From the NCBI RefSeq assembly GCF_964019385.1, contig NC_088644.1:39520349-39584348 (forward strand): a stretch of 64,000 nucleotides of DNA. The letters are read 5' to 3'. This stretch comes from Sycon ciliatum (lineage: Eukaryota; Porifera; Calcarea; Leucosolenida; Sycettidae). Shown one piece after another: positions 45,801-48,800 of this stretch (within the stretch, counting starts at the first letter, position 1; each line of letters opens with the position of its first letter). The translations under genes and the position numbers were made by a program. The notes beneath the pieces are model-generated. The model did no database searches, had not been told where the DNA came from, and saw nothing but the letters and a program-made list of their open reading frames with translations.

Positions 45801-48800
45801 AGTAGCCTCAGGATTTATTGCAATTACATACCAGTTGTAAAAACCTCGGGGGACCTCGGTTTTTATACTGGTATGTAATTGCAATAAATCCTTCGGCTCT
45901 ACATTTATTATAATTATACTTAAACCATTGCGTAAATCTGCCCGTAAAAGAGGACTGGTTGAACAGCTGTATTCATAGAGTTAGGACTGGTTGAACAGCA
46001 GCATTCATAGAGTTAGGACTGTTTGAACAGCTGTATTCACAGAGTTACACCTGTGTTAGGTACCTCCTCCCGTACAATCTTACCTACAACCTTTCCTAAG
46101 CTGGCCGGCCTGCATGCACCCGTACTACGTCATACTCACCTTTCGTTCCGTTGGCCTGGGTAGCTACTTGCGTGCCCATGTTTGCCATAGCTACCCAGGC
46201 CCTTTACTGTATAAGCAGAAATATGCGTCTGGAATTTAATTTCGTCGTTTTCGTCCAAGGAGCTTTTAGACTAAAAAAAAAGTAGGACTAATGTCGATTT
46301 GCCCTGCTTTTCTATACACTTTTATGGTCCATGGACGAAATTTTCAACCGGACGAACTCCTTTTCTTTGGAGTTGGACGAAATTATTGACCGACGAAATT
46401 TTCTGCCTGTAAAGTATATTGCGTTGTTTCTCAGTCGAGCTCTCTCTCTTCAATAATCTCGCTCTTGTCAATAATCACAATGTAGTCGTAGTAGTTCGTC
46501 TTTGTCTCCGTCTCTTCGTCTACCCTAATAAATGTCGTTCCACCTACCTGTCCCGTTGTGAATTGTGTCTGGAGAATATTGGGTCTAATTCATACTCAAC
46601 ATTGGCGCCCAACGTGGGGCTCGAACCCACGACCCTGAGATTAAGAGTCTCATGCTCTACCGACTGAGCTAGCCGGGCTGACTAGAAAGGATTGGTCTCA
46701 GCGGCGCTAGCAAGCTGGCCCCGAAAGGTGGTGGTGACTGCCAGCATTGACGTCCTTGGTTGTCAAAGCAACCATGGCTACGGCAAAGGAGGACCCTACC
46801 ATGGACAGTCCTTGGAAAAGAAAGGAGTTCTGTCACTGGATGCCCCACCTGCAAGGCGCGCTCAGCTGTGGGACAATTCGTACAGCATGCTTCGCGAAGC
46901 ATCTGATTTCTGAAGGACAGTGGAAGGACCTGCAGGCCATAGAAGACCCAGCAAAACACAATGAGCTCTTGCTGGATAGGCTAAGATGTGGTACAGCTGA
47001 GTCCCTTCGCATTTTTCGCTCTCAATAATCACAATGTAGTCGTAGTAGTTCGTCTTTGTCTCCGTCTCTTCGTCTACCCTAATAAATGTCGTTCCACCTA
47101 CCTGTCCCGTTGTGAATTGTATCTGGAGAATATTGGGTCTAATTCATACTCAACACTGGCGCCCAACGTGGGGCTCGAACCCACGACCCTGAGATTAAGA
47201 GTCTCATGCTCTACCGACTGAGCTAGCCGGGCTGACTAGAAAGGATTGGTCTCAGCGGCGCTAGCGAGCTGGCCCCGAAAGGTGGTGGTGACTGCCAGCA
47301 TTGACGTCCTTGGTTGTCAAAGCAACCATGGCTACGGCAAAGGAGGACCCTACCATGGACAGTCCTTGGAAAAGAAAGGAGTTCTGTCACTGGATGCCCC
47401 ACCTGCAAGGCGCGCTCAGCTGTAGGACAATTCGTACAGCATGCTTCGCGAAGCATCTGATTTCTGAAGGACAGTGGAAGGACCTGCAGGCCATAGAAGA
47501 CCCAGCAAAACACAATGAGCTCTTGCTGGATAGGCTAAGATGTGGTACAGCTGAGTCCCTTCGCATTTTTCGCTCTCAATAATCACAATGTAGTCGTAGT
47601 AGTTCGTCTTTGTCTCCGTCTCTTCGTCTACCCTAATAAATGTCGTTCCACCTACCTGTCCCGTTGTGAATTGTGTCTGGAGAATATTGGGTCTAATTCA
47701 TACTCAACACTGGCGCCCAACTTGGGGCTCGAACCCACGACCCTGAGATTAAGAGTCTCATGCTCTACCGACTGAGCTAGCCGGGCTGACTAGAAAGGAT
47801 TGGTCTCAGCGGCGCTAGCGAGCTGGCCCCGAAAGGTGGTGGTGACTGCCAGCATTGACGTCCTTGGTTGTCAAAGCAACCATGGCTACGGCAAAGGAGG
47901 ACCCTACCATGGACAGTCCTTGGAAAAGAAAGGAGTTCTGTCACTGGATGCCCCACCTGCAAGGCGCGCTCAGCTGTAGGACAATTCGTACAGCATGCTT
48001 CGCGAAGCATCTGATTTCTGAAGGACAGTGGAAGGACCTGCAGGCTATAGAAGACCCAGCAAAACACAATGAGCTCTTGCTGGATAGGCTAAGATGTGGT
48101 ACAGCTGAGTCCCTTTGCATATTTTGCGACGTTGTCCGTGACAACGAACCTGCATCAAATTTTGCTAGTTTCCTGGGAGAGATGAAGACGTTGGAGAGTT
48201 TTATTGGGGTTTCTCCAGAATGCAAGAAGGACTGTGATCCAGTTGTAAGTCTGATGAAGGAATTCCCTTCAACAGAACGCCGAACTTGTCGAAGATGCTC
48301 AAGTCTCGCACTGTCCAAAACAAGAAAGTCATTCACTTGCCCAAGCCCACCTCAACAATATCGGTTGACTTGCTAAGCAAGCTGTCCACCGAGAAAGAAC
48401 AGCGAAATGCTCTGATGACAGCCGAGATTGAACAGTTGTAATCCAGCGCTGCAATATTTGATGGCGATGGAGTTCAGCAATCTCGGTTCACAGGACAATC
48501 TCGCTTTCGTCAATAATCACAATGTAGTCGTAGTAATGGACTCGGATGGAGAGCCAAGGTTTAACTTATAGCGTAACTTGTAGTTCCTTGGTCTTTCTCT
48601 TTTGTAGTCGTAGTAGTTCGTCTTTGTCTCCGTCTCTTCGTCTACCCTAATAAATGTCGTTCCACCTACCTGTCCCGTTGTGAATTGTGTCTGGAGAATA
48701 TTGGGTCTAATCCATACTCAACACCTGTTTGAACAGCAGTATTCACGAGTTAGGACTGTTTGAACAGCTGTATTCACAAAGTTAGGACTGGCTGGATAAG

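Follow-up and report, generated by a model that had tools for sequence, protein, structure and literature searches.

Why does an LTR element carry, directly behind its 5' LTR, the complement of an entire primer tRNA? In the canonical scheme of reverse transcription, plus-strand DNA copies U3-R-U5 and then 18 nt of the primer tRNA, up to m1A58, where it stops. We analysed a stretch of 64,000 nt of the Sycon ciliatum genome (538 Mb, 313 contigs), located at C2:39520349-39584348 and hereafter called the window. It contains an LTR element at 46054-48723, between target site duplications (TSDs) CCTG that we read in the sequence at 46050-46053 and 48724-48727. The first-pass annotation had described a whole complement of tRNA-Lys(CTT), CCA included, behind the LTR end CTCAACA, and ARAGORN, Rfam and the sequence itself confirm it. 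ARAGORN reported three tRNA-Lys(ctt) on the minus strand (46603-46678, 47157-47232 and 47711-47786), and the Rfam family RF00005 matched them with 65.1, 65.1 and 56.1 bits, respectively (cut-off 29). The complement is 76 nt long with the CCA, starts one base past U5 (the spacer base is T, C and C in copies 1, 2 and 3), and opens in each copy with TGG, the plus-strand complement of CCA. On the plus strand, copy 1 reads as an 18-nt primer-binding site (PBS) followed by 58 nt of over-extension. Over the 76 nt, copy 1 does not differ from copy 2, and copy 3 has a single change, inside the 18-nt PBS.

The 5' LTR (46054-46601, plus strand, TGTTAGG...CTCAACA) shares its start with relatives elsewhere in the genome. 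Its 3' part recurs downstream in a tandem unit of 554 bp, which is present three times and consists of this LTR part, the tRNA complement and 339 bp of internal sequence. The LTR and host cDNA parts lie on the plus strand. Copy 1 is followed by processed host cDNA with the 5' UTR and first exons (46679-47017, right end approximate). The second unit comprises a partial, R-U5-like LTR (47018-47155, left end approximate), copy 2 and host cDNA (47233-47571, right end approximate), and the third a partial, R-U5-like LTR (47572-47709, left end approximate), copy 3 and the longest stretch of host cDNA (47787-48496). The 3' LTR (48497-48723) has no U3: its entry point is the equivalent of 46455, i.e., the first ~400 bp are missing, and it holds ~67 bp of unrelated sequence (48536-48602). 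The tandem unit, the shortened 3' LTR, the host cDNA and the similar behaviour of other primer tRNAs had all escaped the first-pass annotation. With its TG...CA LTR ends, its short TSD and a tRNA 3'-end complement just past the 5' LTR, the element is a non-autonomous LTR retrotransposon, one in which two full direct LTRs are absent. The 5' LTR also contains a nested high-copy repeat of ~208 bp, MITE-like in appearance (46207-46414), which was missing from all 28 relatives that we aligned; the best 40 of 2845 first-look candidates for this repeat showed 90-95% identity and came from across the genome. The element seems to be inserted into a 32-bp satellite (GTATTCACAGAGTTAGGACTGGTTGAACAGCT), found on its flanks at 44967-45155, 45951-46047 and 48725-49059. 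Elsewhere in the window, two acyl-protein thioesterase-like frames are neighbours, at 22863-23810 (recognised by eye) and 26579-27478 (confirmed by homologues).

The internal part of the element is an intron-free processed copy of a multi-exon host gene. Positions 47787-48480 matched a gene family of C7 as separate exons spread across kilobases (17 matches, three of which were the window itself). The alignment with the C7 flanks placed the exon joins near 47835, 47895-47897, 48209 and 48396. In C7 the introns after three exons start with GTAAG, GTAAG and GTACA, and CAG precedes exon 2; none of the C7 introns is present in the window copy. The identity was 85-98% with two neighbouring paralogues, values that do not single out the exact parent. 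The end of the tRNA copy abuts the host sequence in its 5' leader, where the window reads AGCCGGGC before TGACTAG and C7 reads ATCCGAGC before the same TGACTAG. As in LTR-mediated retrocopies, the intron-free copy of a multi-exon gene lies between LTR sequences.

The LTR family of the window was found in 30 loci, i.e., 28 relatives once the two loci of the window itself (L013 and L037) are set aside. The tRNA complement reached ~65-67 nt in seven relatives and was a shortened tRNA copy in five; one relative had 12 nt of the PBS and 15 had the LTR end without PBS. The first-pass annotation had proposed to test in other copies whether the whole complement always occurs, with copies limited to an 18-nt PBS, and this one explained by a tRNA gene inserted nearby, counting against its reading. 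A PBS of exactly 18 nt was sought in the 28 relatives and found in none.

To the scale of the genome, the exact 18-mer of the tRNA-Lys PBS, a probe that PBSs with mismatches escape, had 174 sites, and the reversed control had none. We read 96 of these 174 matches (91 loci), taken from the first 100 places listed, of which four were skipped, and grouped them by simple mismatch rules into 60 lineages. The complement extended over 23-76 nt and went beyond 19 nt in every one of the 60 lineages; no lineage of this sample ended at 18-19 nt. The end points fell at 23-38 nt in six lineages, 39-46 nt in 11, 50-54 nt in four, 58-68 nt in 32 and 72-76 nt in seven, with a mode at 66 nt (nine lineages). 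The last class is under-counted, as the tRNA stretches of the window are N in the genome copy and perfect full-length copies may hide in the same way. In a random control (500 draws of the 18-mer with random sequence) the median was 18 nt and the 99th percentile 23 nt; its maximum of 66 nt came from a locus pool that itself includes such extended sites. The shortest Lys extensions (L101, 23 nt, and L080, 24 nt) are at the 99th percentile and not safe singly, and apparent end points generally include some chance microhomology. In 24 of the 60 lineages the complement had no mismatch up to its end point, and the downstream sequences were unrelated. The claim that reverse transcriptase read through the primer tRNA in full and left a fixed product is thus supported, and as a recurrent process in which both the end points and the LTR ends are numerous.

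Other primers gave a similar picture, which rejects a single lone read-through event. Leu(HAG) primer sites numbered 338, from which we read 60 of the 100 places listed, leaving out most members of tandem arrays (63 matches, 55 lineages). The complement ended at 18-19 nt in eight lineages, 34-44 nt in nine, 45-49 nt in 34 and further on in four, among them one with the whole 85-nt tRNA complement (L162). Judging by the genome's own tRNA-Leu(TAG) and (AAG) genes, a stop just before G37 would give exactly 47 nt, and 34 of the 47 lineages extended beyond 19 nt end within 45-49 nt. Regular arrays of Leu(HAG) primer sites were seen at C1:48339600-48340746 (94-bp period, 13 copies listed) and C1:64236385-64236727 (65-bp period, six copies listed). 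For Leu(CAG/CAA), with 51 sites, we read 38 places and scored 38 matches, one further match being dropped as too short. They formed 36 lineages, with end points at 18 nt (three), 22-25 nt (three), 32-49 nt (29) and 57 nt (one), and a mode at 42 nt; 33 of the 36 were extended. Taken together, 140 of the 151 lineages sampled for the three primer classes went beyond 19 nt, and in each class the end points were more clustered than uniform expectation (p ≤ 5e-5). A generic pattern (LTR-like ACA, TGG and conserved T-arm bases) had 363 matches, against 15 in the control; those listed were mostly Lys and Leu, plus two Tyr-like sites.

Sequence changes within the extensions tell how they are transmitted. 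All 20 copies of one dispersed Lys lineage (L039, five contigs, 62-nt extension) have G21A. This lineage includes a gag-like frame with a weak PNMA match below the cut-off. A change at nt 24 was common to all six copies of L158, which are spread over no more than 3 Mb and could stem from segmental duplication, and two changes were common to the three copies of L116. Since these private changes are found in all copies, the extension was inherited in the three lineages via the element RNA, and the G21A change indicates that the strong-stop DNA of L039 usually ended before nt 21. A whole extension remade in each cycle is ruled out for the lineages in which this can be tested. Hence, the near-universality of the extension requires accumulation (a ratchet), selection, or both.

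The sequences that adjoin the extensions are diverse. We found integrase (L052-L054, L059), a reverse transcriptase fragment (L047), a Pao polyprotein fragment (L040), an Env-less gag (L068) and an MFS transporter gene (L010). The gag, reverse transcriptase and integrase of these loci, candidates for the Gypsy type, are all fragments. The transporter insert matches C8 uninterrupted by introns, which proves the capture of host DNA or RNA, though it does not establish a spliced mRNA. Some loci have the form LTR-tRNA-LTR (L045, with 162 bp identical, L065, L066 and L067). Two of these, L045 and L066, are minimal, with almost no internal sequence and LTR copies 99-100% identical. Others fold back into the tRNA and an inverted LTR (L057, L078, L182). 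Head-to-head LTR-tRNA palindromes (L057, L075, L078, L182) suggest that a tRNA-templated end may have used itself, or another strong-stop DNA, as template. We also saw the LTR end and PBS repeated as short tandem units, several times over in some loci (L079, L092, L093, L098, L145, L159, L166, L183, L198). At least two different end points or downstream sequences were associated with the same LTR-end type in 15 of 40 types for Lys (one of the 15 being the two arms of a single palindrome) and 11 of 27 for Leu(HAG). Internal deletion or decay within the tRNA part was found in L014, L015, L018, L020, L026, L062, L068 and L082-L086.

Plus-strand strong-stop DNA has been reported to halt before m1A58, whereas a primer tRNA devoid of modification is copied through to the 5' end, and synthesis proceeds beyond A58 once TRMT6/61A is lost (PMC13191261). 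We consider it very probable that the tRNA complements in this genome are the fossil 3' ends of over-extended plus-strand strong-stop DNA, which were joined to other cDNA and then inherited. Plus-strand strong-stop DNA would repeatedly pass A58 and continue along the primer tRNA. Its over-extended end would be unable to pair with the 18-nt minus-strand copy of the PBS. It might be rescued by joining, or switching onto, retroelement gag or pol, host cDNA, another LTR or itself. After integration of the joined product, the element RNA would pass the extension on. In the window, a complete read-through of the tRNA would have been linked to the copy of a spliced host mRNA, at its exon 1, and the joined unit multiplied afterwards. 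The absence of the 3' U3 suggests a jump of the minus-strand strong-stop DNA itself onto the host mRNA. The extensions with their end points, the shared private changes and the processed host copy can be read from the sequence; the strand, the template switch and the timing are what we infer from them. Complete switch intermediates are not visible in a genome. Counting against this reading, a misincorporation signature of m1A at A58 was absent from the 60 Lys lineages, where position 58 was mismatched only once. Loss of the m1A58 methyltransferase by the host was considered and rejected: PF08704 matches C2:30300420-30303308, i.e., a TRM61-like gene is present.

Could the complements have arisen otherwise? 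The tRNA detectors report the window copies as tRNA-Lys, as they would for ordinary tRNA genes or tRNA-derived SINEs inserted beside LTR ends. Yet a tRNA gene would be expected to lack an encoded CCA and to have a Pol III terminator, whereas the window copies have the CCA and no T-run 3' of it on the minus strand; such copies also keep a fixed register relative to the LTR end, and their ends vary. The true tRNA-Leu genes of this genome lack the CCA, and a T-run follows two of the three that we read (the third locus was too short to judge). The 60 Lys lineages already contradict such insertions, for which we see practically no chance, and the argument of the first-pass annotation from the CCA and the missing terminator holds, strengthened by the many internal end points. 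Alternatively, one ancient element may have gained the whole tRNA complement, with today's families descending from it and deletions from the 3' side giving the end points. Inheritance within lineages and the copies with deletions or decay in the tRNA part would agree with a single origin. It is nonetheless very unlikely, given that four primer tRNAs or isoacceptor groups are affected (Lys, Leu(HAG), Leu(CAG/CAA) and Tyr-like), that the 24 Lys lineages are perfect to an end followed by unrelated sequences, and that the ends cluster in a primer-specific way where deletions would spread.

Two further explanations bear on parts of the process. The extension could be under selection as a long PBS, by better pairing and priming with the tRNA or by tolerance of over-extended strong-stop DNA, much as a lengthened form of the lentiviral over-extension sequence would act. 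The absence of 18-nt-only lineages among the 60 for Lys and the 62 nt retained by the dispersed L039 with its gag-like frame fit this, as do published over-extension sequences of a few nt (PMC13191261) and the extended tRNA contacts described for Ty3 (PMC5371799). On the other hand, 18-19 nt suffice in eight of 55 Leu(HAG) and three of 36 Leu(CAG/CAA) lineages, and the extension tolerates private changes. We regard selection as a tentative explanation; it would account for upkeep and not for origin, and it is compatible with over-extension. The position of the ends is a separate matter. They might result from run-off on fragmented primer tRNAs (3' halves, cuts in the D-loop) or from structural stops, and not from modified bases. 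The peak of Leu(CAG/CAA) at 42 nt coincides with the base of the variable arm, a place for which no blocking modification is known to us, and the Lys ends at 39-46 nt (11/60) and 58-68 nt (32/60) correspond to the anticodon-loop and D-arm regions. Our prediction for Leu(CAG/CAA), set beforehand, was of ends at 18 nt and near G37: the 18-nt class appeared, but the G37 peak was absent (one of 36 lineages at 49 nt), which contradicts a general assignment of the ends to position 37. Against fragments or structure stand the sharp Leu(HAG) ends just before G37, where m1G37 would place them, and the minor strong-stop published at position 37 of tRNA-Lys3 (PMC13191261). Run-off or structural stops are thus a serious possibility for the ends, if somewhat short of an even one. 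As marks of tRNA modification, the ends fit for Leu(HAG), fit partly for Lys and failed for Leu(CAG/CAA).

Over-extended strong-stop DNA has been described in test tubes and in cells deficient in the m1A58 enzyme, in an account that calls full-length copying unproductive (PMC13191261). Here, a supposed dead-end product was apparently kept and inherited many times. With the apparent product in so many sampled lineages, genome sequence gives access to the fate of over-extended DNA, to the stops of reverse transcriptase on real primer tRNAs and to the gain of internal sequences or host genes by LTR elements, and all three can be tested directly. We see an even balance for and against the broader view that, in this host lineage, m1A58 is an unreliable stop, over-extended strong-stop DNA is a normal intermediate, joining at tRNA ends is a main route to new LTR families and host mRNA capture, and the genome archives natural reverse transcription stops on several primer tRNAs. 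There is also a practical consequence, since tRNA annotation can mistake such copies for genes, as ARAGORN did in the window.

Short over-extension sequences, Helenus elements and LTR-mediated retrocopies are already published; a long, multi-primer, genome-wide over-extension was not found reported in the open-licence literature that we searched, subscription papers and preprints aside. One close likeness is the primer over-extension sequence of lentiviruses and spumaviruses, a complement of the primer tRNA past the 18-nt PBS that arises by A58 bypass; in that account it enters the T loop only, and full copying of the tRNA (P1 among the products P1-P5 of HIV-1 plus-strand strong-stop synthesis) is described as inactive (PMC13191261). 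The extensions reported here likewise lie directly 3' of the PBS, but they are far longer (23-76 nt for Lys and up to 85 nt for Leu), fixed in the genome and found with several primers. Helenus elements, TRIMs with tRNA-like LTRs, are also non-autonomous LTR elements with tRNA sequence, and in animals they have 4-bp TSDs and Gypsy partners. As far as their description goes, the tRNA-like part is within the LTR and has no complementarity to the PBS (PMC10886601), whereas the tRNA copy of the window begins past the LTR end, continues from the PBS, is antisense and includes the CCA. The TG...CA LTRs, the PBS and the gag, reverse transcriptase and integrase fragments of related loci recall Ty3/Gypsy elements, in which the canonical PBS is ~18 nt or shorter. 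Finally, LTR-mediated retroposition, by template switching in virus-like particles, also places a sense copy of a spliced host mRNA in an LTR element (PMC5408686); relative to the cases in that account, the junction in the window is the end of a primer tRNA copy and not internal retroelement sequence, and the 3' LTR has no U3.
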